A stretch of DNA of 33,242 nt, from assembly GCA_036524115.1 (NCBI GenBank), contig DATDCY010000207.1, positions 1 to 33,242 of the forward strand, given 5' to 3'. A model generated the notes under the pieces. That model worked only from the letters and a program-made list of their open reading frames with translations. It was not told the DNA's origin and searched no databases. Position numbers and translations under genes: made by a program. The number at the start of each line of letters is the position of its first letter. The stretch's first letter is position 1. The DNA comes from a bacterium. GTDB taxonomy: Bacteria > JAUVQV01 > DATDCY01. Positions 2,561 through 33,242 of the stretch are shown in pieces.

Positions 2561-4342
2561 CTAGCGTCGCGCGCCGGCGGCGCGCAGGCGCTCGGCCTCG
2601 CGTTGCGCCGCCAGGGCCTCGTCGCGGCGTCCGAGCAGCGCGAGCGCCCGGCCGAGGGCCTGCCATGCTTCGGAGGAGTCCGGACGCAGGCGCGTCGTCT
2701 CCCGGAAGAGCGCCTCCGCCTCCGGGAGCCGCCCGGCGTTGGCGAGGATCGCGCCGAGGTTGACGCGCGCAACGGCGCCCGCCGGATCGAGCCGGATGGC
2801 GGCGCGGTAGGCCTCCGCCGCCTCGTCGAGGCGACCGACCTCCGCGAGCGCGTTGCCGAGGTTCGCGGACGCCTGGGCGTTGCGCGGGTCCGCGGCGATG
2901 GCGGCGCGGAAGGCGGGGATTGCCTCCGCCGCCCGTCCGGTGAGCGCCAGGACATTGCCCAGGTTGTTCTGGGCCGACGAGAACGCCGGGTTGATGCGCA
3001 CCGCCTCCCGCAGTTCCGGCTCGGCCTCGGCGTAGCGTCCCTGCGAGAAGAGGAGGAAGCCCAGGTTGCCGCGGACCAGCCAGTTGTCCCTCGTCACCGC
3101 GAGCGTGTGCCGGAAGATCGTCTCGCCGTCCCGCCAGAGGCCGGCCTGCGTGGTGGCGATCGTCGCCAGCGCGGCGATCGTTGCCGCCCCCGCCGCGGGC
3201 GCGAGGCGGCGCACGCGCCAGCGCCCGGCCAGCGTGGCCGCACCCCAGACGGCGGCGACGGTCAATCCGATCTGCGGCAGGTACGTGTAGCGGTCTGCGT
3301 GCGCCTGGTAGCCCACCTGCACCAGGCCGAGCACCGGCGCGAGCATCCCGAGGAACCAGAGCCAGCCGGTCGCGAGGAACGGAAGGGTCGGCCGGCTGCG
3401 GACGAGCGCGGCCGTCACCACGAGCAGGCCGACGCAGGCGATCGCGCCCGCCGTCCACGGCGCCGGCGTCGTGGCGAGCGGGTAGAAGAGCGCAAGATCG
3501 GCGGGCCAGACCGTCTGCACGACGTAGGTGATGACTGACGACGACGCGTTGAGGACACGTGCGGCGGCGGTCGCGGCGGGCATCACCACGATGGCGCGCG
3601 CCTCGGTCTGCGCCACCAGCGTGATCGCAGCCGAGAATGCCGCGAGCGCGAAGAGGGGGAGCTTCTCGGCGATCAGCCGCGCGCGGAATCGCGGGCCCCG
3701 GGCAGCGGCGGCCGGCAGCGCGCGGCCCAGGGGCCACCAGTCCAGCAGGAGCAGCACGCACGGGACGGTGACCAGCATCGGCTTGGCCATGAGGCCGAGG
3801 GCGAGGAAGAGAGGGACCCACGGGGAGCGGCCGGGATCGCCCCGACGGGCGGCGCGCTCGTACGCCAGGAGCACGAGCATGAAGAAGACCCCGGCCAGCA
3901 CATCCTTGCGCTCGGCGACCCAGGCGACCGATTCCACCCGCAGCGGGTGGACGGCGAACAGGGCGGCGACCAGCGCGCTGCGCCAGCGCATGCCGGTGAG
4001 GCGGTGCGCGGCGAGGAAGAGGAGCGCGGCGGCGAGCGCGTGCAGCAGGACGCTCGTCGCGTGGTGGCCGCGGGGGTCGAGGCCGAAGAGCTGCACGTCC
4101 AGCATGTGCGAGAGCCAGGTCAGCGGGTGCCAGTTGGCGGAGTGGAAGGAGGTGAGCGCCCAGCGCACGCCGGCGAGGGTGAGGCCGGTGCGCACCCGCG
4201 GGTTGTCCACGACGTACTCGTTGTCGTCGAACTGGAGGAACCCGTCCGGCAGCCCGGCGATCAGGTAAGGCAGGGCGGCGAGCAGCGCGACGGCGAGCGC
4301 GAGGATGGCGGCAGGTCGACCGTCCTTGCTTCCGTCCTTCAC
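2561..4342 (-). CDS. TMTC-like integral membrane protein with C-terminal TPR repeats
   Basis: This 593-residue protein has about ten hydrophobic segments over residues 10-380, followed by tandem TPR units (about 400-590, with repeated Ala/Gly/Leu TPR spacing such as LGNVLALTGRAAEAIPAF). The N-terminal half carries conserved blocks of bacterial relatives of TMTC O-mannosyltransferases (GT-C fold): FDDNEYVVDNP just after TM1, where an acidic pair is expected to be catalytic, then HPLRVESVAWVAERKDVL and a MAKPMLVTVP segment. By family this suggests transfer of a sugar from a lipid carrier to exported proteins, with TPRs engaging the acceptor; that is inference. GTG is used as the start, placed six bases after TATACT with no SD. 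It is the likely first gene of a short unit with gmk. Confidence 0.85.
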   Translation of the reverse strand: MKDGSKDGRPAAILALAVALLAALPYLIAGLPDGFLQFDDNEYVVDNPRVRTGLTLAGVRWALTSFHSANWHPLTWLSHMLDVQLFGLDPRGHHATSVLLHALAAALLFLAAHRLTGMRWRSALVAALFAVHPLRVESVAWVAERKDVLAGVFFMLVLLAYERAARRGDPGRSPWVPLFLALGLMAKPMLVTVPCVLLLLDWWPLGRALPAAAARGPRFRARLIAEKLPLFALAAFSAAITLVAQTEARAIVVMPAATAAARVLNASSSVITYVVQTVWPADLALFYPLATTPAPWTAGAIACVGLLVVTAALVRSRPTLPFLATGWLWFLGMLAPVLGLVQVGYQAHADRYTYLPQIGLTVAAVWGAATLAGRWRVRRLAPAAGAATIAALATIATTQAGLWRDGETIFRHTLAVTRDNWLVRGNLGFLLFSQGRYAEAEPELREAVRINPAFSSAQNNLGNVLALTGRAAEAIPAFRAAIAADPRNAQASANLGNALAEVGRLDEAAEAYRAAIRLDPAGAVARVNLGAILANAGRLPEAEALFRETTRLRPDSSEAWQALGRALALLGRRDEALAAQREAERLRAAGARR

Positions 4343-7504: not shown

Positions 7505-9214
7505 TTACCGGGGGGCGGGCGCGCCCGCGAGGGCCTCGAGCAGCGCGGCGTCGCGGCCGTAGACGTCCTCGCGGAACTCGACGGTGCCGTCGGGATCCAC
7601 CCACGTCGTCTGGTAGAGCAGGTACACGGGCATCGGCTCGCGCAAGGGCACGCTCAACGTCGCGCCGGCGGCGATGGCGGCCTCGATCTTCGCGCGCGTC
7701 CACGCCGGGTCCGGGGAGAGCAGTCGCGCGGCCAGCTCCGCGGCGCGCTCGACGCGGATGCACCCCGAGCTGTAGGCGCGGTCCGGTCGCGCGAAGAGCC
7801 CGCGCGACGGCGTGTCGTGGAGGTAGATGTCGTAGCGGTTCGGGATCTGGAACTTGAGGCGGCCCAGCGCGTTTCGCGGTCCCGGGTCCTGGCGGAGGCG
7901 ATAGGGGAACCGGCTGGCGGGAAGCCGCTTCCAGTCGACGGTTCGGGGGTCGATCTCGCGCCAGGCCATTCCGGCCCGCGCAAAGAGCCGGAATCGCTCC
8001 TCCGCGAAGAAGTCCCGGTTCCCGAGGATCAGCGGCAGTTTGTCCTCGAGGGCGATCTTCGCCGGCACGACCCATGGCGGATTCACCAGGACGCTGGTGA
8101 TCTCCCCGGTGAAGAACGGCGTGCGGCGCGATTGGCGTCCGGCGATCACGCGCATCGAGAGGTCGGGCGCGCCCGGCTCGGTCAGCGTCAGCCTGAAGTC
8201 CGGGATGTTGACGACCAGCCGGCGGGGGGCCAGGTCGCGCGGCAGCCAGCGCAGGCGCTCGAGGTTGGCCTCGATCTGCCGCGCGCGCAGCGAGGCGGGC
8301 ACGTTCAGGGCGGCGAGCGTCCGCCCGCCGGCGATCGCGTCGGCATCCAGGCCATGACGTGCCTGGAAGCGCCGGAGCGCCTGGGCCAGCTGGCGGTCGC
8401 AGACCTGGTCGCCGGGTCCGTTCTCCGGCAGGTCGCCGGTCGCGGCGAGACGGCGGCGCAGCGCCGCGATCCGCGGACCGCGGTCGCCCTCGCGCAGCGT
8501 CGGGCCCGGCGCGACGAGCGGCCAACCGCCCGCGGCGGCGACGGCCCGTTGGGCGGCGAGGGCCGCGCGCAGGCGGCGGTAGTCGTCCCGTGCCGGCGGC
8601 AGCTCGGCGAGGGTGCCGGCAAGATGGCCCCGCCCGAGGGCGGCGGCGAGCAGCAGCGGGAGGGCGGCGTCGCGGCCGGCGATGTTCCACTCCGGCTCTA
8701 TCGCGGTCGGGTTGACACGCCCGCTCGTGAGGTGCCTCGCGTAGAGGAAGAACGCGTCGGAGAGCAGCACGTCGAGGTCGACGAGGTCGGCGTCCGTCGT
8801 CGGCGCCGGCCGCTTCCCCTTGGACGCACGGTCCCGCAGGCGCTCGATCGCCGCGAGGTGGTAGTCGGCGGGCCGGAGGCCTTCGCGGTCGACCGAGCGG
8901 ATCGCCGCCAGCAGGTCGCCGGCCTGCGGCGAGAGCTTGCCGCCGTCGCTCCAGGCGAGACGGTTGCCGCGCGCCTCGTAGAAGAGCCGCAGGGCCGCCG
9001 GGCTGATCAGCGGCGTCCCGTCGCGGGTCCAGCCGTCGTCGAGGCGCGCCGCCAGCGACCGCTGCGGCGCGGCGGCACGACTCTCTGCGGTCCGGGGCGC
9101 CTGCGCCTCCGGGGGGGCCGGGGCGCGAGGCGCAGCCACCGCTGCAGGGGACGTCGGGAGCGTCGCCATGGGGAGGACCGCTGCGAGCAGGACGGCGTGA
9201 AACCTCGGCATCAT
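7505..9214 (-). CDS. YcbB-type L,D-transpeptidase (YkuD domain)
   Basis: The product should form 3-3 (mDAP-mDAP) peptidoglycan crosslinks in the periplasm. The 569-residue protein has a signal peptide (residues 1-27), an N-terminal scaffold region, a peptidoglycan-binding repeat (about 235-290, GPRIAALRRRLAATGDLP ... LAQALRRFQARHGL) and a YkuD catalytic domain (about 325-500). The active-site block reads YLHDTPSRGLF followed by YSSGCIRVE; the nucleophile is Cys485, with the HDTP histidine upstream. Length and order match the long YcbB/LdtD class rather than short LDTs. Two ATG codons are adjacent at the start and no SD is evident. It precedes the MepK-like gene and diverges from ferritin. Confidence 0.92.
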   Translation of the reverse strand: MMPRFHAVLLAAVLPMATLPTSPAAVAAPRAPAPPEAQAPRTAESRAAAPQRSLAARLDDGWTRDGTPLISPAALRLFYEARGNRLAWSDGGKLSPQAGDLLAAIRSVDREGLRPADYHLAAIERLRDRASKGKRPAPTTDADLVDLDVLLSDAFFLYARHLTSGRVNPTAIEPEWNIAGRDAALPLLLAAALGRGHLAGTLAELPPARDDYRRLRAALAAQRAVAAAGGWPLVAPGPTLREGDRGPRIAALRRRLAATGDLPENGPGDQVCDRQLAQALRRFQARHGLDADAIAGGRTLAALNVPASLRARQIEANLERLRWLPRDLAPRRLVVNIPDFRLTLTEPGAPDLSMRVIAGRQSRRTPFFTGEITSVLVNPPWVVPAKIALEDKLPLILGNRDFFAEERFRLFARAGMAWREIDPRTVDWKRLPASRFPYRLRQDPGPRNALGRLKFQIPNRYDIYLHDTPSRGLFARPDRAYSSGCIRVERAAELAARLLSPDPAWTRAKIEAAIAAGATLSVPLREPMPVYLLYQTTWVDPDGTVEFREDVYGRDAALLEALAGAPAPR

Positions 9215-9351
9215 GCGTACCCGATGGTGAGGTCCGCCCCGCCGAAAGTCAACGAAGGAAGGGGGGTGATCGCCTCCTTGACACCCGCCGCAGCGCCAAG
9301 GAAGATCGGCGGCAGGTTCCCGCAGGGAGACAACCCGGGAGGAGGCACGCC

Positions 9352-9888
9352 ATGATACCGAAGCGCGTCAGGGACGAGATGAACCTGCAGATCAAGCTCG
9401 AGCTGGAGTCCTACTACCTCTACCTCTCGATGGTCGCGTGGTTCCACGAGCAGAACCTCGACGGCATGGCGCACTGGATGCGCTGCCAGGCGCACGAGGA
9501 GATGATCCACGCGATGAAGTTCTTCGACCACATCATCGAGCGCGGCGGCACCGTCGAGCTGGTCGACCTGAAGCAGGGGAAGACGACGTGGTCCTCGCCG
9601 CTGGAGGCCTGGAAGGACGCCTACGCCCACGAGCAGTTCGTATCGGAGCGCATCCGCACGATCACGAAGGCCGTGCGCGAAGAGAGCGACTTCAACGCCG
9701 AGCCGATCTGCGCCTGGTTCAACAACGAACAGATCGAGGAGGAGACGAGCACGCAGAAGGGCGCGGCCAGCATCGAGATGGTCGGCGACAACCGCCAGGG
9801 GCTGCTGATGCTCGACCGCGAGATGGGCACCCGCGTGTTCACGGCCGGCTCGCCCTTGGACCCGGCGGCGTACAACCTCGCGAAGTAG
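9352..9888 (+). CDS. Bacterial non-heme ferritin
   Basis: The 178-residue four-helix ferritin has the iron ligands expected for FtnA-type proteins: Glu in ELESYYLYLSM, the EEMIHAMKF pair (Glu and His) and Glu residues in the NNEQIEEE segment. It should oxidise and store iron in the cytoplasm. A strong SD (GGGAGGAGG) precedes the ATG by about seven bases. A TTGACA box at 9278-9283 is followed after 17 bases by a poor -10 (GAAGAT), so the promoter is only tentative. The C-terminus (about 165-178) extends past the last helix. An iron store fits a genome rich in cytochromes and Fe-S proteins. Confidence 0.94.
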   Translation: MIPKRVRDEMNLQIKLELESYYLYLSMVAWFHEQNLDGMAHWMRCQAHEEMIHAMKFFDHIIERGGTVELVDLKQGKTTWSSPLEAWKDAYAHEQFVSERIRTITKAVREESDFNAEPICAWFNNEQIEEETSTQKGAASIEMVGDNRQGLLMLDREMGTRVFTAGSPLDPAAYNLAK

Positions 9889-9917
9889 CCGCCGAACGGT
9901 TTCCGCCGCCCCTCGGG

Positions 9918-9936
9918 GGGGGCGTGCTGCGCCCCC
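9918..9936. terminator. GC-rich hairpin between convergent ferritin and MFS genes
   Basis: GGGGGCG and CGCCCCC form a seven-base perfect stem around a five-base loop, midway between the ends of the two convergent genes. No T tract follows on either strand, so intrinsic termination is only possible. Confidence 0.35.
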
Positions 9937-9943
9937 TGCCCGC

Positions 9944-11272
9944 TCAGGTGCGTGCGCCGGAACCGCGGGAGTCCTTCAGCAGCGGCGCGAGCCCGGCGAG
10001 GGCGGCGCCGGCGCCCAGCGCGGTGACGAGCTGCGCAGCCCCGGCGGGGCCGCCCGCGAAGGCGGAGCCGGCCGCGCCGGCGAGCGGACCGGTCAACACG
10101 CCGATGCCGATGACCCACTCGTGGAATCCGCCGCCTTCTCCTTCGCCGCCCGCGCGGTCGAGGGAGGAGTGCAGGGACGCCGAGTAGGCGACGCCCGAGG
10201 CTGCGCCCAGGAGGGCCAGCGCGCCGATCGCGGCCGCAGGCGAGGGCGCGAGGAAGGCCGCGGCGAGCGCGGGAGGCGAGAGCGCCAGCGCCGCCGCGAC
10301 CCAGCCGCGGCGGTACTCCCAGCCGCTCCAGCGCCAGAAGAGCACGAAGACCGCGCCGCGCGCGAACAGATACGTGCTCACGAGCCAGATCGCCAGGCGC
10401 GGGCCGAGGCCGAGGCGCTCGCCGACGGTGGGGGCGAGGGCGGCGAAGGCCCCGAAGAGGAAGTAGCCGAGGCCGTTGGCGATGCGGGCCGAGAGCAGGT
10501 ACCGGGCCCGCGATGCAGACGTGTGGCCGGCCGATCCCGTGCTCGCTCCGGGGTCCTGTCGCTTCGGACCCCCGCGGACTCGACCGTTCGCGACACTGCG
10601 TCCCGCAATGACCTGCTCTTCAAGCTCACGGTCTCGTTCGGATCGCGATGGGATCGCGCTCCGGAACGGCGCGGCTGATACTCCTTCTTTGTGCTCCCTT
10701 CGGTCCGTCACGGGCGCGCCGGCGGCGCTCGAGAAGGGAGAGAAGAAGGTGTGCGCGGCGAGGAGGGCGAGCATCAGGGCGTGGGCGGCGAGCGGCGCGA
10801 AGAAGACCGTGTCGGGGTCGAGCGTGAAGAGCGAGCCGGAGAAGAAAAAGCCGGCGGCGCCCGTGAACGACCAGACGACGTTGTAGAAACCGGCCCGTCG
10901 CCCCAGGTCGGTGGTGCCGGGGGACCTCGCGACGGCGGCCTCGAGCGCGGGCCACGTCAGGGCTGTGGCGCCGCTGTACGCCGCGATCGTGCCGTACAGC
11001 GCGGCCGCCTGCGGCATTCGCCAGCCGGCCACCAAGGCCAGGCACATCCCCGCCAGGCCGAGCGCGATGGAACGGTCGGGGCCGATGCGATCCGCGAGCC
11101 GGCCCCCGGGGCGGGTCGCGAGGACGTAGGCGGCGCCCTGCGCGGCGGCGAGCATGAGGTTCGCCAGGTCGCTGAAGCCGTGGCCGACCCGGGCGTGGAA
11201 GAAGACGCCCAGGAAAAAGATGTTGGTGCCGAGGGCGTTGAGCCCCTCGAGCAGGTAGTAGCGCCTCAGCAA
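9944..11272 (-). CDS. MFS transporter, third gene of the hypDE operon
   Basis: The 442-residue protein has two bundles of hydrophobic helices separated by a long hydrophilic loop (about residues 187-255), as in the major facilitator superfamily. The loop after TM2 reads GGRLADRIGP, an MFS motif A-like sequence. I chose TTG at 11272 as the start because the sequence then begins MLRRYYLLEGLNAL directly before TM1; it is one base away from the hypE stop, so translation is probably coupled. The same frame stays open far upstream across hypE and hypD, but that part is antisense-frame noise. Substrate is unknown; the hyp setting makes a metal or small ligand possible but nothing in the sequence proves it. 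The central loop carries an unusual palindrome-rich insert. Confidence 0.85.
   Translation of the reverse strand: MLRRYYLLEGLNALGTNIFFLGVFFHARVGHGFSDLANLMLAAAQGAAYVLATRPGGRLADRIGPDRSIALGLAGMCLALVAGWRMPQAAALYGTIAAYSGATALTWPALEAAVARSPGTTDLGRRAGFYNVVWSFTGAAGFFFSGSLFTLDPDTVFFAPLAAHALMLALLAAHTFFSPFSSAAGAPVTDRREHKEGVSAAPFRSAIPSRSERDRELEEQVIAGRSVANGRVRGGPKRQDPGASTGSAGHTSASRARYLLSARIANGLGYFLFGAFAALAPTVGERLGLGPRLAIWLVSTYLFARGAVFVLFWRWSGWEYRRGWVAAALALSPPALAAAFLAPSPAAAIGALALLGAASGVAYSASLHSSLDRAGGEGEGGGFHEWVIGIGVLTGPLAGAAGSAFAGGPAGAAQLVTALGAGAALAGLAPLLKDSRGSGART
10512..10710 (-). repeat. Palindrome-rich in-frame insert in MFS central loop
   Basis: About 200 bases encoding the charged, low-complexity centre of the MFS loop contain two clear hairpins: GGGGTCC/GGACCCC (10550-10556 and 10566-10572) and CGCGAT/ATCGCG (10644-10649 and 10653-10658). 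Local composition and codon use differ from the flanking membrane segments. It resembles an intergenic palindromic repeat that inserted in frame. No second copy is in the window, so the repeat call is inference. Confidence 0.4.
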
Positions 11273-27955: not shown

Positions 27956-28552
27956 TCAAAACGCCCCCGTCACAACCTTCCCGGCACGCTCGTAACTTGC
28001 GAAGATGACACCACTCGGCGTCTGCTCCGAGTGCGTAAGCCTGAACGCCGCCGGAAGGGTCCCTTCGCCGAAGAGACGCTTGCCCATGCCGAGGGTGATG
28101 GGGAAGGTCTTGAGCCACAGCTCATCAACCAGGTCCTGTGTGAAGAGCGTTTGGAGGAGCCGGCTGCTGCCGTAGACCTGAAGATCAGGACCTTCCTGCT
28201 GCTTCAGCCTCCGTATTCCCTCCGGGACGTCACCTGTGATGAACACGGTGTTGTCCCAGAGCGACTCGGTCTGCCTGTCCGAGACCACGTACTTCGTCGC
28301 CGAATTGATGCCCGGCCACCCGCTCTCGTGTGCCGGCCAATACGAGGCGAATATCTCGTAGGTCCGTCTTCCGAGCAGGAGAGCACGCGTCCTGGTCATC
28401 TGTTCCTGCATGATGGCGCCAAACCGCTCGTCGGCATACGGCACAACCCAGCCGCCATGGGTGAACCCGCCATCGGTGTCTTCCTGCGGTCCGCCCGGCG
28501 CTTGAATGACCCCGTCGAGGGTGACAAATTCGAGGACGATGACTCTTCGCAT
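27956..28552 (-). CDS. Dihydrofolate reductase/RibD C-terminal-family reductase
   Basis: The 198-residue protein has the RibD C-terminal/DHFR-like fold signatures: LEFVTLDGVIQAPG at the start, LLLGRRTYEIFASYWP in the middle, TKYVVSD and VYGSSRLLQTLFTQDLVDELWL near the NADPH site. This family includes YwjB-like reductases whose substrates are mostly unknown; it is not a confirmed folate enzyme. ATG at 28552 has an SD (AGGAG). GC content is lower than in genes to the left, and similar proteins are common in mobile soil gene pools, so horizontal gain is possible. Confidence 0.88.
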   Translation of the reverse strand: MRRVIVLEFVTLDGVIQAPGGPQEDTDGGFTHGGWVVPYADERFGAIMQEQMTRTRALLLGRRTYEIFASYWPAHESGWPGINSATKYVVSDRQTESLWDNTVFITGDVPEGIRRLKQQEGPDLQVYGSSRLLQTLFTQDLVDELWLKTFPITLGMGKRLFGEGTLPAAFRLTHSEQTPSGVIFASYERAGKVVTGAF

Positions 28553-28601
28553 GGGTGTTTCTCCTGTGTGCGTCAGCCAAGGGGCCCCGGGCAAGCGTGC
28601 G

Positions 28602-29087
28602 TCAACCGCGCCACGCAGTCTCGATTGCGGCGATGTCGATCTTCTTCATCAGCAGCATGGCGTCGAACGCGCGCTTGGCCGCAGCGCGATCGGGGTCGGT
28701 GACAGCTCTGGTCAAGGCAATCGGCGTGATCTGCCACGACAATCCCCATTTGTCCTTGCACCAGCCGCACGCGCTCTCCTGCCCGCCATTGTCGATGATC
28801 GCGTTCCAGTAACGATCCGTCTCGGCCTGATCGGCGGTGGCGACCTGGAACGAGAATGCCTCACTATGCTTGAACGCGGGTCCGCCATTGAGCCCGATGC
28901 AGGGAATTCCCATCACAGTGAACTCGACCAGCAACACATCACCTTTCTTCCCGGAGGGAAAATCTCCCGGGGCGCGGTGCACCGCGCCGACGGACGAATC
29001 AGGAAAGGTCTCGGCGTAAAAGTGCGCCGCGGCCTCGGCTGTTCCGTCGTACCACAGGCAAATCGTGTTCTTGGCTGGCTTCATCAT
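28602..29087 (-). CDS. PhnB-like VOC-superfamily protein
   Basis: The 161-residue protein fits the VOC/PhnB-like group often annotated as 3-demethylubiquinone-9 3-methyltransferase domain: ICLWYDGTAEAAAHFYAETFPDS at the N-terminus, EFTVMGIPCIGLNGGPAFKHSEAFSFQV in the middle and the CGWCKDKWGLSWQITP block. These proteins are usually small dimeric metal-binding or ligand-binding folds; the methyltransferase name is historical. Two ATG codons are adjacent and GAGGAG is a good SD. The open frame continues upstream, but without start signals. Confidence 0.88.
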   Translation of the reverse strand: MMKPAKNTICLWYDGTAEAAAHFYAETFPDSSVGAVHRAPGDFPSGKKGDVLLVEFTVMGIPCIGLNGGPAFKHSEAFSFQVATADQAETDRYWNAIIDNGGQESACGWCKDKWGLSWQITPIALTRAVTDPDRAAAKRAFDAMLLMKKIDIAAIETAWRG

Positions 29088-29154
29088 GTCGCTTCTCCTC
29101 TGCCATGAGTCGCCGAACGCAGCGTGTGGCTCCCTCGCGACCGCGGTTCGCGGG

Positions 29155-29526
29155 CTATGGGGTATCGCTTGTCTTTGCAGCGGACCAGCAACCTCCCCGG
29201 CCTCCGCCACCGGTAATAGTGCCTGACATGGCATTGCCGCTTTCGAGGGTTCCAACGAGGATGTCTCCCAACGATTCGGTGAAGTCCAATGTAATTCCAT
29301 TCCCTTCGCCCCGCCACCTCCCGGCATTGCTGTCATTGGCGGTGACCGTGCCATCTGCGGATATATGGAGGACGCCGGTGAAGGAATGACCAGTACATCC
29401 ATAGTCCCGGCGTGCTGCCCAAGTGCCGACAACACGTGCCTCATCGTTGTCATCACCACTTCCCGCGCAGTTCGCAACGCCACAAGTAAGAGCCATGACG
29501 AGCAGAAGAAGTCGGATGCTCCTCAT
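29155..29526 (-). CDS. Small probable lipoprotein, unrecognised
   Basis: The 123-residue product has a hydrophobic N-terminus (SIRLLLLVMALTCGVANC) with a lipobox-like V-A-N-C, imperfect because Asn replaces the usual small residue before Cys. The mature part is Gly/Ser/Thr-rich with two further Cys, and has a VVGTWAARRDYGCTG ... GTVTANDSNAGRW pattern like small beta-sandwich or lipocalin-like exported proteins (VxGTW is a common motif there). ATG at 29526 has a GAGAAGGGA purine stretch. It begins directly beside the half attC that ends the cassette array, so it may be either chromosomal or a disrupted cassette gene. Confidence 0.6.
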   Translation of the reverse strand: MRSIRLLLLVMALTCGVANCAGSGDDNDEARVVGTWAARRDYGCTGHSFTGVLHISADGTVTANDSNAGRWRGEGNGITLDFTESLGDILVGTLESGNAMSGTITGGGGRGGCWSAAKTSDTP

Positions 29527-29543
29527 TCCCTTCTCCTCTCCCA

Positions 29544-29562
29544 TTGCAACGCCTGGTTGGGC
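29544..29562 (-). repeat. Truncated attC (first half only) at array end
   Basis: On the minus strand GCCCAAC, CAGG and CGTTGCA match the first half of the other sites, and the outer arm pairs with the start of the cassette at 29645-29885. The second half is missing; the sequence runs directly into the lipoprotein gene. Confidence 0.7.
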
Positions 29563-29604
29563 CGTCTTTCAGTCTTATGTACAACACAGATGACACTTCT
29601 CCAT

Positions 29605-29627
29605 CTCAACAACTCGATATTGTTGAG
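29605..29627. repeat. Inverted repeat in the 3' region of the last cassette
   Basis: CTCAACAA and TTGTTGAG form an eight-base perfect stem with a seven-base loop between the small cassette gene and the half attC. No T tract follows; role unknown. Confidence 0.4.
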
Positions 29628-29644
29628 AGCCGGCCTTTACTACC

Positions 29645-29833
29645 CTATTGATATTTGTTGAACTCGTACTTCTCGGCCAGGTTTGCCTTTTCTTCCGGGG
29701 ACAGAGAAGTGAAGTAGCCTTTCCAACCGGGACAGAAGTTGATATGCCAACGCCAGAGTCGCCCAAGTAGCGATTTGGGGTTGTTGTCATACTTTGCCCG
29801 AAAGGCACAGTGTGCACATCTTTGCTCAGCCAT
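29645..29833 (-). CDS. Cassette gene: 62-residue putative zinc-binding protein
   Basis: The small protein begins with CAHCAFRAKYDNNPKSLLGR, continues with LWRWHINFCPGWKGYFTSL and ends with a charged helix (SPEEKANLAEKYEFNKYQ). The CxxC and the later Cys/His residues suggest a zinc site; I recall similar short proteins in varied bacterial genomes, but none with a known function. An AGGGAG purine stretch precedes the ATG. It is the oldest cassette of the array by position. A larger overlapping frame on the same strand (to 29575) has poorer composition and is rejected. Confidence 0.72.
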   Translation of the reverse strand: MAEQRCAHCAFRAKYDNNPKSLLGRLWRWHINFCPGWKGYFTSLSPEEKANLAEKYEFNKYQ

Positions 29834-29879
29834 TCATACGCTCCCTGATAGAATTGTTCTTCGACTGCCACTGTCGTTG

Positions 29880-29972
29880 GCCCAACGTAGCGTCTGGCCG
29901 CGGGGCGGGATGGCGCGTAGCTGTGCTACGCACAGACCGTGACAGACCGTCGGCTACAAGGCCTGGTTATGC
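29880..29972 (-). repeat. attC site
   Basis: Outer arms GCCCAAC and GTTATGC, with inner arms GTCTGGCC and GGCTACAA. The interior keeps the CTGTGC-TAC-GCACAG hairpin shared with three other sites. The last inner arm carries an extra base relative to its partner, giving a minus-strand orientation. Confidence 0.9.
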
Positions 29973-30030
29973 CATCCCCATGATATCGCTTTCGACGCTG
30001 AGCATTGGACAGAATTCGTATTGGAGATTT

Positions 30031-30243
30031 CTAACGAATTGAAGAAAAGAAAAGACAAATCGCGTCCACAACACACAGGACGAAGGAAACGATGGCTGTT
30101 TTGTGCCACAATCTCGCTTGTTCCCTTGCGTCCTGGAAATAGTCCTTCAATAGACTTCCGGCTGCCAAGAAGAGAAACATCCACAATCCAAAGAAACTGG
30201 CTACGCCGACGAAATCCCGTGCACTCTTTGTCAATCCTCTCAC
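30031..30243 (-). CDS. Cassette gene: small two-helix membrane protein
   Basis: The 70-residue product has two clear hydrophobic helices (about 11-31 and 48-67) joined by a charged loop (KDYFQDAREQARLWHK) and a basic N-terminus, a hairpin membrane protein. The start is GTG at 30243, the only start in the frame after an in-frame stop. SD is weak (GGAG overlapping). A competing frame (29954-30262) ends HNQAL inside the attC as cassette genes often do, but its sequence has no recognisable structure. Function unknown. Confidence 0.5.
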   Translation of the reverse strand: MRGLTKSARDFVGVASFFGLWMFLFLAAGSLLKDYFQDAREQARLWHKTAIVSFVLCVVDAICLFFSSIR

Positions 30244-30382
30244 TCCAGAGCACCAGGCTCAATCCGATTGTGAGACGGGTTCAGGACACGTCCACAGGCT
30301 AGCCAAACCCCTTAGGAATAGCAAGAATCACACGTCCGGCGACGACTTCGGTGATGGCAGGCATAGTTCTTCTCTTCTTGTG

Positions 30383-30476
30383 GCATAACGTAGCGTTTAG
30401 CCGCGAGACGGGCTGGCGCGGGCTGTGCTCCGCACAGACCGTGACAGACCGGATCGGCTACAACGCCTGGTTAGGG
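30383..30476 (-). repeat. attC site
   Basis: Outer arms GCATAAC and GTTAGGG with inner arms TTTAGCC and GGCTACAA. The interior hairpin is CTGTGC-TCC-GCACAG. Its first outer arm pairs with the end of the next cassette on the left, not with its own right arm. Confidence 0.92.
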
Positions 30477-30854
30477 CATATCTTCAATGTCCGTACACTT
30501 TTGCCACATGAAGCCCGGGAGTAGCATTAGACCTAGATCGTAGGTTCTTTCATCGATTTGCTGGGCGACAAAGGCACCAAGAAGCGCCCCCACGGCCGTC
30601 GTGGCGAAAAGCTCCCATCGATTTGACCACCCAGCCAGGACGGGTTCGGTAAGTTCTTGATGTCGGTAGTCGGCGATCACCTGGAAGTGAGCGCGCGACC
30701 ACTGCTCGGTGGGTGCATGAATGGAGAAACCGACGAAGGCTGGCTTGATTGCCAAATCGTCTTCGGGATTCGGTGAATCAACGCGCCGGGCAGACGCAAG
30801 CAAAGTAGGCCACTGGGCCAGGACGTTTTCGAAGATCATCTTAGGCTCGAGCAT
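30471..30854 (-). CDS. Cassette gene: hypothetical protein
   Basis: The product (127 residues from ATG 30854; a GTG nine bases upstream adds three) is not recognised. It has a mixed alpha/beta look: PAFVGFSIHAPTEQWSRAHFQVIADYRHQEL, then a short hydrophobic stretch (WELFATTAVGALLGAFVAQQ) that may be one membrane segment. The stop codon TAA lies within the outer arm of its own attC (CCCTAAC), the usual arrangement for cassette genes. No SD is obvious at either start. Confidence 0.65.
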   Translation of the reverse strand: MLEPKMIFENVLAQWPTLLASARRVDSPNPEDDLAIKPAFVGFSIHAPTEQWSRAHFQVIADYRHQELTEPVLAGWSNRWELFATTAVGALLGAFVAQQIDERTYDLGLMLLPGFMWQKCTDIEDMP

Positions 30855-30877
30855 TGATATCACATTTCAGCTTAGTG

Positions 30878-30999
30878 CCCTAACGTAGCGTTTAGCTACC
30901 GGCGCGCTTGCGGGCGCCTTGGAACTTGCCTTTGCCTCTGCACACTGAACGGTAGCCCTCTTGCAAGCGTGATCGGTCAGCTACAACGCCTGGTTAGGC
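30878..30999 (-). repeat. attC site (long, second subfamily)
   Basis: Outer arms CCCTAAC and GTTAGGC. The interior differs from neighbours and is shared with the rightmost site: GGCGCGCTTGC near one end and TTGCAAGCGTGATC near the other, which can pair as CGCTTGC/GCAAGCG. Confidence 0.9.
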
Positions 31000-31281
31000 G
31001 TTCCTCCTCCGTGATTCGGATGGGAATCGTGATGAGCCGTGGTGAGAGGGGAGACGCACATCATGGACGTCGTTACTCTTGATCACGACTTTGAATGACT
31101 GGCTTGTCGTAATGTTTCGAATAGTCTGTTCTTGATCCAGAGTTTCGAGACTGATTTCAAGCTCATGACCCAATTCAAGGTTGTGTGTCGTATTCCCTTG
31201 AAGGACGACCAATATGGAGTTGTCAGTGATCGCGCTGGCGTAGTTGAGCTCTCGATTGATCTTGTTGACGATGGCTTTCAT
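30994..31281 (-). CDS. Cassette gene: small hypothetical protein
   Basis: The 95-residue product starts KAIVNKINRELNYASAITDNS and contains ILVVLQGNTTHNLELGHELEISLETLDQEQTIRNI, which suggests beta strands. The C-terminus is basic with His and Arg (HHGSSRFPSESRRRNA). No family is recognised. The stop TAA lies in the CCTAAC arm of its attC. The ATG is 20 bases after the cassette crossover, with only a weak purine tract. Confidence 0.62.
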   Translation of the reverse strand: MKAIVNKINRELNYASAITDNSILVVLQGNTTHNLELGHELEISLETLDQEQTIRNITTSQSFKVVIKSNDVHDVRLPSHHGSSRFPSESRRRNA

Positions 31282-31294
31282 TATCTGTTCTTTC

Positions 31295-31392
31295 GCCTAA
31301 CGTAGCGTTTAGCCGCGGGCCGAGATGGCGCGGGCTGTGCTCCGCACAGACCGTGACAGATCGGATCCGTCGGCTACAACGCCTGGTTAGCT
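31295..31392 (-). repeat. attC site
   Basis: Outer arms GCCTAAC and GTTAGCT, inner arms TTTAGCC and GGCTACAA, and the CTGTGC-TCC-GCACAG interior hairpin. It closely resembles the sites at 30383 and 32651. Confidence 0.92.
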
Positions 31393-31809
31393 CTCCTTTT
31401 CCTCTTCATCTTCCTCGCGACACCTGTAATGCGATAACTCGATGTCCAGACCCGTGGGTGCAGCAGCCCGGATGAATTTTGCGGGCAGGTAATCGGAGTA
31501 GGCCGCCCACTCGTCACGCATTTCAATCCCGAAGTCCAGTACCGCGTATTCCACGCCGGGGAATGCTGTCATGGCTTCTAGGGACGCGCCGTGTTCTTCA
31601 AGGAATGCCGTTGCGTCTTCAATTTGTCGTTCGAATTCGTCAAGGTCTGCTTGGCTGACGTCAAACGCTGCGCCACTATCCGTGAGTATCTTCTTCTTGA
31701 CTCCATGTACATCGCCCTTACACCAAGTACGATAGGGCGTGAAGGGTAGCCGCTTGAGCAGAGCACCAACGTCCAACTCTTGGCCACCGACTCTAAGAAT
31801 GCATGACAT
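31387..31809 (-). CDS. Cassette gene: conserved-looking hypothetical protein
   Basis: The 140-residue product begins SCILRVGGQELDVGALL and contains WCKGDVHGVKKK, an acidic helix (DVSQADLDEFERQIEDATAFLEEH), then FPGVEYAVLDFGIEMRDEWAAYSDYLPAKFIRAAAPTGLDIELSHYRC, ending in an acidic tail. I recall similar short proteins as hypothetical cassette products but can assign no function. An AGAAGAG purine tract precedes the ATG and the TAA stop lies in the attC outer arm. Composition and length fit a soluble cytoplasmic protein. Confidence 0.72.
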   Translation of the reverse strand: MSCILRVGGQELDVGALLKRLPFTPYRTWCKGDVHGVKKKILTDSGAAFDVSQADLDEFERQIEDATAFLEEHGASLEAMTAFPGVEYAVLDFGIEMRDEWAAYSDYLPAKFIRAAAPTGLDIELSHYRCREEDEEEKES

Positions 31810-31825
31810 GTCTCTTCTTTCTCAG

Positions 31826-31883
31826 AGCTAACGTAGCGTTCAGCCGCGCGCGTCAGCGCGTCGGCTGCAACGCCTTGTTGGAG
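31826..31883 (-). repeat. attC site (short, about 58 bp)
   Basis: Outer arms AGCTAAC and GTTGGAG, inner arms TTCAGCC and GGCTGCAA, with a minimal CGCG-rich loop. Length is close to the classical 59-base element. It lacks the interior hairpin of the longer sites. Confidence 0.93.
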
Positions 31884-32641
31884 TGCTTTCCATCCTTTGT
31901 TCTTGCGCTGTCATAGATGAGTTCTTGACCAACCCTCAGCCCATTGGGACCACTCAAGGTATTCTGACGGATGATCTCTTCGGCTTCAGTGGAGTACTTG
32001 GTGGATATTCGTTCAACAGTCTCCCCAGACTGCACAACATGGCGCCATGAGACGTGGGCAGCTGACAAGGAAGACAGAGCGTCGGGATTGAAGTCTACGG
32101 TATCAATAGATTGTCCAGCTTCTGCATCCTCTTCAGTTTCGAAGATCGACGACGACGTATAGGCCAAGACATATCTCGAGCCGTCCCAGAAGTGAATGGC
32201 TCCGGCGTACCCGTCAAATCGCGACTTGTCCTGCTGCATGTGCCATCCCCGAAATATCCGATATCTTCCGTTAAACTTTGGCCCGCCTGTTACGACTTCG
32301 GCCCATGTCCCTTCACTATCGAACAGAAGCACGAGCCTATTGTCCCGCATTTCAAACAGATAGTTGTACCTGATCGCCCAGGATCCAGACCCGCCTCCAG
32401 GAGAGAATCGATAGACGGGGCTTCCATCACCAATGTCGACCGTCGAGAATTCGGCCCCAGGATCAAGGCTGTACTCGCGAAAGACTATGGATGCCACCTC
32501 TTCGGGGTTGACGCATTCAACTTTGCTGAGAACGTACTGGACCTCCTGCGGAGTCACAGAAGACAGGACGAGCGAGTCAGGGCAAAGGAGTCCGACACAC
32601 ACCAAGACCATGACAATCAACGATTGCCTACTCAGTGTCAT
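31853..32641 (-). CDS. Cassette gene: exported LysM-like protein ending in attC-encoded ALQPTR
   Basis: The 262-residue protein has a signal peptide (about 1-28, SLIVMVLVCVGLLCPDSLV), a beta-rich middle with FSPGGGSGSWAIRYNYLFEMRDNRLVLLFDSEGTW, and a C-terminal LysM-type domain (HVVQSGETVERISTKYSTEAEEIIRQN ... LRVGQELIY). LysM domains bind N-acetylglucosamine polymers such as peptidoglycan. The last residues ALQPTR are encoded by its attC, a tail I recognise from many environmental cassette proteins. I prefer ATG 32641 to the TTG at 32656, which lies within the attC crossover. It is the largest cassette gene here. Confidence 0.83.
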   Translation of the reverse strand: MTLSRQSLIVMVLVCVGLLCPDSLVLSSVTPQEVQYVLSKVECVNPEEVASIVFREYSLDPGAEFSTVDIGDGSPVYRFSPGGGSGSWAIRYNYLFEMRDNRLVLLFDSEGTWAEVVTGGPKFNGRYRIFRGWHMQQDKSRFDGYAGAIHFWDGSRYVLAYTSSSIFETEEDAEAGQSIDTVDFNPDALSSLSAAHVSWRHVVQSGETVERISTKYSTEAEEIIRQNTLSGPNGLRVGQELIYDSARTKDGKHSNKALQPTR

Positions 32642-32650
32642 CGTTCTGCA

Positions 32651-32748
32651 CTCCAACGTAGCGTTTAGCCGCGGGATGGGATGGCGCGGGCTGTGCCCCG
32701 CACAGCCCGTGACAGACCGGATCCGTCGGCTACAACGCCTGGTTGGCC
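32651..32748 (-). repeat. attC site
   Basis: Outer arms CTCCAAC and GTTGGCC, inner arms TTTAGCC and GGCTACAA, and a CTGTGC-CCC-GCACAG interior hairpin. The upstream DUF1232 gene is translated through nearly all of it. Confidence 0.92.
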
Positions 32749-33087
32749 ATTCCTATTCCCATCGACTTGTCTTCTGCACTCCATTACGACCTCTTCTGGG
32801 ATTGTTCTTCTTGCTGTCCATACCAGGAGAGGCAAAATCAACAGATCGTCGAGGTGGCCAAGCACTGGAATAAAATCAGGAATCAGATCAATAGGTGAGA
32901 TGGCATAGGCGATCGCGATGCTGAGAATTATTCGTGAAATCCTTGGGGTGAGCGGATGGCGCATGACAAGCCGGTAGACCTGTATTTCTGTTTTGAATAG
33001 AGCAAGGAGTGATCGAGATCTTTCGACGTATTTCATGCGTGCTCGAGACTCCGGTGGTGGTGAAGCAGTTTCAATAGTATTTTTCAT
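32665..33087 (-). CDS. Cassette gene: DUF1232 (YkvA-like) membrane protein, tail encoded by attC
   Basis: The DUF1232 signature is unmistakable: RIILSIAIAYAISPIDLIPDFIPVLGHLDDLLILPLL (about residues 52-88), one or two membrane helices around SPIDLIPD. Function of this family is unknown. The 140-residue frame does not stop at the attC boundary: about the last 27 residues (from GQPGVVADGSG onward) are read from the attC itself, stopping at a TAA in the far inner arm. ATG at 33087 lies only 12 bases after the crossover; an in-frame Met at residue 18 is an alternative. Neither has a clear SD. Confidence 0.8.
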   Translation of the reverse strand: MKNTIETASPPPESRARMKYVERSRSLLALFKTEIQVYRLVMRHPLTPRISRIILSIAIAYAISPIDLIPDFIPVLGHLDDLLILPLLVWTARRTIPEEVVMECRRQVDGNRNGQPGVVADGSGLSRAVRGTARAIPSRG

Positions 33088-33097
33088 TTATTGTTCA

Positions 33098-33224
33098 GGC
33101 CAACGTAGCGTTTAGCCGCGGGCGCGCTTGCCGGCCCGGACTGGAACGCTTCAACTCACCTCAGCACTTGCATCTGAGGGCCGATATGCAAGCGTGATCC
33201 GTCGGCTACAACGCCTGGTTCGAT
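33098..33224 (-). repeat. attC site (long, second subfamily)
   Basis: Outer arms GGCCAAC and GTTCGAT, and interior GGCGCGCTTGC and TATGCAAGCGTGATC segments like the site at 30878. Its right arm belongs to a further cassette outside the window; bases 33225-33242 read as a minus-strand frame ending in a TGA, so that cassette's gene probably ends at this edge. Confidence 0.9.
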
Positions 33225-33242
33225 GGTCATCCTCTCTTCTTC

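Follow-up and report, generated by a model that had tools for sequence, protein, structure and literature searches.

The stretch of DNA analysed here (the window) is 33,242 bases long and makes up an entire contig, C207, of the 3.9-Mb genome of an uncultured bacterium, in 374 contigs with a bin contamination estimate of 4%. At one end of it, between 29544 and 33242 and on the minus strand, lie seven complete attC sites, seven cassettes and one half site (Table 1). The original prediction had placed seven complete attC sites there from reading the sequence, and a covariance model found all of them, on the minus strand between 29880 and 33224. The half site was also present as predicted, as the sequence AACGCCTGGTTGGGCC at about 29548-29563, with a model score of just 6.6 bits because its L'/R' half is missing. 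The array reaches the right edge of the contig, which stops ahead of any integrase, and the R'' arm of attC 1, ATCGAAC, is part of a further cassette running off the contig. The GC content of the array is 53%, against 72% for positions 1-27400 of the window.

Table 1. Features of the array in the window. Cassettes are given from core to core; bit scores are those of the attC covariance models (R2, held-out) and fold z compares folding with shuffles.
Feature	Position	Strand	Evidence and remarks
attC 1	33098..33224	-	R1 113.3 bits; held-out R2 114.3 bits; fold z -2.84; nearest the contig edge
Cassette 1	32742..33104	-	ORF 32665-33087, 140 aa, DUF1232/YkvA-like (PF06803, E 3e-14); arms GTTGGCC/GGCCAAC
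attC 2	32651..32748	-	95.7 bits; held-out 73.9 bits; fold z -6.02
Cassette 2	31877..32657	-	ORF 31853-32653, up to 266 aa, LysM domain (PF01476, E 8e-11); arms 10 nt
attC 3, short form (58 nt)	31826..31883	-	50.5 bits; held-out 47.6 bits; fold z -4.53
Cassette 3	31386..31832	-	ORF 31387-31809, 140 aa; weak DUF4279 (PF14106, E 0.0035, below cut-off); arms 9 nt
attC 4	31295..31392	-	96.3 bits; held-out 74.6 bits; fold z -5.63
Cassette 4	30993..31301	-	ORF 30994-31281, 95 aa; no Pfam match; arms 8 nt
attC 5	30878..30999	-	111.7 bits; held-out 118.1 bits; fold z -2.60
Cassette 5	30470..30884	-	ORF 30471-30863, 130 aa, glycine-zipper-like stretch; Pfam sub-threshold only; arms 9 nt
attC 6	30383..30476	-	85.0 bits; held-out 63.4 bits; fold z -5.72
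Cassette 6	29966..30389	-	Best ORF 29954-30262, 102 aa from TTG; no Pfam match; arms 9 nt
attC 7, most diverged	29880..29972	-	70.7 bits; held-out 50.5 bits; fold z +0.37
Cassette 7	29556..29886	-	ORF 29575-29871, 98 aa; no Pfam match; arms 8 nt
Half attC of cassette 7 (R'' and L'' present, no L' or R')	29536..29562	-	Sequence; 6.6 bits only
Distal tail, intermediate GC (61%)	27956..29544	-	GC, Pfam; cassette orientation, no recognisable attC

In every cassette the longest ORF runs leftward, giving about one ORF per cassette, all in one direction. This holds weakly for cassette 6, where the ORF begins 127 nt inside the cassette and we are unsure of its coding status. No toxin-antitoxin pairs were recognised with Pfam among the window cassettes, the cassette proteins had no match at E 1e-3 among 80 integrase loci of other bacteria, and no Rfam family scored over threshold in the window. 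Regarding plasmids, the comparison with plasmid records gave local matches of 65-85 nt only.

Beyond the half site, the distal tail carries a small lipoprotein-like ORF, a 3-dmu-9_3-mt/PhnB-like gene (28602-29087) and a RibD_C-like gene (27956-28552). A model scan for attC remnants among these genes (27956-29544) returned best scores at chance level. One to three such genes, in cassette orientation and lacking attC, follow the last truncated attC in three clusters of this genome (27956-29544 in the window, 9100-10400 in locus L012 and 3375-4118 in locus L014), and in all three they have an intermediate GC content of about 57-65%. They are possibly old cassettes whose sites were lost.

Structure of the attC sites

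In order to avoid circularity, a second model (R2) was built from the attC sites of three clusters on other contigs, with zero window sequence, and it recovered all seven sites with E values from 4e-28 to 4.5e-10. The sites have the R'', L'', L' and R' arms expected of an integron array together with an unpaired base in L'', and their cores fit RYYYAAC and GTTRRRY. This extra base, a G at alignment column 16, was found in the L'' arm of 17 of the 17 aligned sites of the genome. Folding was assessed on the sites as single-stranded DNA against shuffles: all window attC sites folded better except attC 7, the z score of which (+0.37) was no better than shuffles, and four did so by at least 4.5 standard deviations. 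Across the attC sites of this and other genomes, in an alignment that had been fitted to the structure, a 12-pair stem showed changes on both sides at 11 pairs, and 0 of 500 shuffles scored as high.

The attC sites of the window and of three further clusters, on contigs C18, C68 and C206, share their arms and can be sorted by loop into three or four types (about 58, 92-98, 114-128 and 122 nt), which recur across different clusters.

The asymmetry of an attC site, that is, the extra base in L'', tells the direction of an array. Given both the direction of the cassette ORFs and this conserved base, it follows that the integrase should lie to the right of the array, and the orientation is therefore the one originally predicted.

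Pairing of arms within cassettes

The first bases past the recombination point of each cassette were compared with the reverse complement of the end of the same cassette, counting the contiguous match. In cassettes 1 to 7 these matches were 7, 10, 9, 8, 9, 9 and 8 nt long, which sum to 60 against a mean of 31.1, and among all 5040 permutations of starts and ends this sum was reached only by the true pairing, in which the start core pairs with the R'' arm of the cassette's own attC. All seven pairs quoted in the original prediction are present, some of them one or two bases longer than given there. By comparison, the arms that meet inside one attC of the array, and thus come from neighbouring cassettes, match over just 3-6 nt in the window. 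Genome-wide, the 13 usable cassettes gave a sum of 101 against 52.3 (sd 5.7), a value reached in 0 of 20000 shuffles.

Strong pairing with the own end and weak pairing with the neighbour is what the insertion of circular cassettes predicts. The rule is established integron knowledge, and nothing about it is new here. The array does confirm that cassette boundaries can be placed by reading the sequence alone. These boundaries had been called proven: the pairing is real, but the word is slightly too strong, the link between the window and an integrase being one that we infer.

The sites have palindromic sequences and are found in other parts of the genome too, as would also be the case if they were dispersed hairpins (REP-like elements or transposon ends) between ordinary genes. 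Nevertheless, the arm pairing is specific to each cassette, the cores and the extra L'' base of the 17 aligned sites are those of attC, the sites are confined to directional clusters with low-GC genes, and related sites adjoin intI in other genomes. The permutation test and the association with intI refute this explanation, to which we give next to no probability.

An integrase and other attC clusters in the same genome

A single protein of the genome exceeds the curated cut-off for integron integrases (374.5 bits, or 392.5 for the whole protein, against 265), and its score together with the catalytic residues R, K, H, R, H and Y places it in TIGR02249. Its gene is intact, encodes 458 aa at 321-1697 of locus L011 on contig C284 and is transcribed rightwards, divergently from what lies to its left, namely an attI-like junction, GCTCAAC (203-209), a cassette of about 160 bp and a partial attC. 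The junction matches the attC arm of this cassette, GTTGAGC at 46-52, so that here too the start of the cassette pairs with its own attC arm. The partial attC fills positions 1-52, belongs to the same family as the window sites and scores 30 bits with the held-out model. Directly behind the intact gene, at 1862-2074, there is a C-terminal remnant of a second intI copy, with 87% identical DNA over 190 bases, in which the catalytic tyrosine has become a cysteine (TTMICTHVL) and most of the length is lost.

The genome-wide scan with the attC model found sites on C18, C68, C206, C207 and in the C284 stub, and nowhere else, about 20 attC sites over four clusters with several loop types. The clusters on C18, C68 and C206 have GC-rich chromosomal sequence (about 70-79%) on both sides and are by definition CALINs, attC clusters that have no integron integrase. 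Each of them ends distally in a truncated attC, like the window, and each carries one toxin-antitoxin pair: in one case MazF and a ribbon-helix-helix protein, in another BrnT and an antitoxin of CopG type, and in the remaining one a Phd-type antitoxin and a weak ParE-like match.

Some details were seen at the edges of these clusters. Immediately ahead of the first cassette, the proximal flanks of C18 (L012 3377-3522) and C206 (L014 7635-7780) have about 57 bp in common, 79% identical, and this shared part ends in CCTAA[T/G]CAACT|GTT, similar to the core of an attI. The flanks may be what is left of attI in integrons whose intI has gone. We rejected the idea that this flank is a genome-wide repeat, as just two copies were found. 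In C68 the R' arm of one attC is replaced by GATCAACTGTTTGGC (L013 4449-4461), the motif ATCAACTGTT being common to this replaced arm and the start of the C18 array, and the place looks like a hybrid junction of attC and attI type.

Both C207 and C284 look native to the genome, as hypF of the window and the ftsA-ftsZ-radical SAM-YfiH genes of C284 match a genome of the same order with 57-71% identity. Synteny with that genome (G001) did not join the two contigs: nothing within 20 kb on its ftsZ contig matched the window, and the contig with hypF is 6 kb long. There is no read or contig that connects C207 with C284 either, and between the two, one or more cassette ends are absent. However, the array is open at the right of C207 and at the left of C284, and at no other place, so the simplest map joins these two ends: the two contigs probably belong to a single locus that the assembly left with a gap. 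Therefore, of the earlier claim that the integrase lies to the right, the orientation stands and an intI with the predicted layout exists in the same genome, its linkage to the window being probable.

We consider that the feature in the window is very probably the distal part of a chromosomal integron, that is, an array built by an integrase. The arm pairing, the orientation and the matching intI and attC in the same genome make integrase-mediated assembly, as first proposed, the best reading. A cassette would enter as a circle, and the integron integrase, here most likely that of C284, would recombine the folded attC of the circle with attI beside intI, opening the circle at GTTRRRY and pushing older cassettes away from intI, in this case leftward. 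In the circle, the start core and the R'' arm of the same cassette would form one attC, which is why the arms of one cassette pair and those of neighbours pair less well. The recombination activity and the direction of growth are what we infer from this arrangement.

Another explanation is that the array is itself a CALIN without its own integrase, fed in trans by that of C284 or cut off by a rearrangement. Three such clusters do exist in the same genome. Furthermore, CALINs are commoner in bacteria than complete integrons (PMC9668308), and off-target insertion, loss of intI and rearrangement have been proposed as their origins (PMC8618304). Nevertheless, in the window 7 of 7 cassettes have kept their arms intact. 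In the three CALINs a match of at least 7 nt was found in only 4 of 10 cassettes, and for this reason the window array looks younger or active. In addition, C284 needs an array on its left. We therefore regard a CALIN as the less likely origin, though a serious one.

It is also conceivable that the array is a fossil, whose integrase has since disappeared or become inactive, C284 being unrelated or placed in the wrong bin. The mutated and shortened intI remnant on C284 fits such decay, but the main gene beside it is complete and encodes every catalytic residue, the genes around it match the same lineage, the attC stub is of the same family and the window arms are undecayed, which makes a fossil very improbable. 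Regarding relatives, the outcome that would have refuted the original prediction, a lack of integrase together with identical arrays in related genomes, was not seen: in the one same-order genome compared, no protein passed the integrase cut-off and the attC model gave a single marginal hit. Hits to attC were obtained in three genomes with intI, and none or only marginal ones in four without it.

The array brings integrons to a lineage that is deeply isolated: among the genomes compared, one belongs to the same order and the others share only the domain. As it combines an intact integrase with a well-preserved array and with three attC clusters of the same family that are decaying, this genome is also useful for the study of CALIN formation.

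The integrase clade and comparison with known systems

The least expected result is that the C284 integrase belongs to a clade with two core-binding domains. It carries two SAM-like copies of this domain in tandem, both matched by PF13495. With a profile of 22 sequences of the extra domain alone, the best solved structure was IntI4 (E 2.4e-4, residues 14-91), and the profile aligned to the core-binding domain of IntI with E 4.7e-7. AlphaFold2 modelled the extra domain as a confident helical bundle (pLDDT 89.3), whose best structural matches were IntI4 chains, with a TM score of 0.65 by query length and a Foldseek E value of only 0.04.

In a tree of 79 integrases made with the extra domain left out, 27 of 29 long-form sequences were set apart by a branch that had full SH-aLRT support; the same side holds three sequences left short by ORF calls, and the two long frames opposite may owe their length to upstream overhang. 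Members of the clade come from Nitrospinota, Nitrospirota, Thermodesulfobacteriota, Gammaproteobacteria and Verrucomicrobiota. Among 386 genomes, 53 had an integrase over the cut-off, about 16 of these with open frames of at least 430 residues, counted from stop to stop, which may overstate the length. A broadened attC model found 21 sites (E up to 0.1) at 8 loci of the clade, some of which had also supplied sites to the model, and all of them were upstream of intI and on the opposite strand. This is the classic layout of an integron.

We found no description of such a clade in the open-access papers searched. That the likely integrase of the array represents an undescribed major IntI clade, with tandem domains in several phyla and a distinct mechanistic class, is a tentative suggestion that we hold to be doubtful. 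If true, the extra domain would alter the enzyme's grip on folded attC or on attI; for instance, it might hold a larger part of the hairpin or an adjacent repeat of attI. If these enzymes work in another way than IntI1 and IntI4, the accepted picture of attC recognition could be tested in a new enzyme. The array is an ordinary integron array from an unsampled lineage, and any novelty may lie in the integrase, outside the window.

With sedentary chromosomal integrons the probable locus of C207 and C284 shares intI, an attI-like junction, related attC sites, cassette genes pointing in one direction away from intI and a chromosomal setting. It differs in that the recovered array is short (seven complete cassettes, one on C284 and partial ones at the contig edges), in its three or four attC loop types rather than one and in a presumed linkage to intI; large sedentary integrons have from tens up to hundreds of cassettes whose attC sites are nearly uniform, against about 20 attC sites of several loop types here. 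The definition of a CALIN fits C18, C68 and C206, and would fit the window if there were no intI to the right, although the window array ends at a contig edge and its sites show less decay than the ones in these three clusters. The nearest solved structure to the C284 integrase is Vibrio cholerae IntI4 (PDB 2a3v), and the core-binding and catalytic domains match IntI4 and TIGR02249 from end to end, with a phmmer E value of 6e-75 and, when structures were compared, 43% identity. However, in the C284 protein and its clade these domains are preceded by a second core-binding domain of about 90 residues; the C284 integrase is 458 residues long, compared with about 320-340 for IntI4 and the TIGR02249 integrases.
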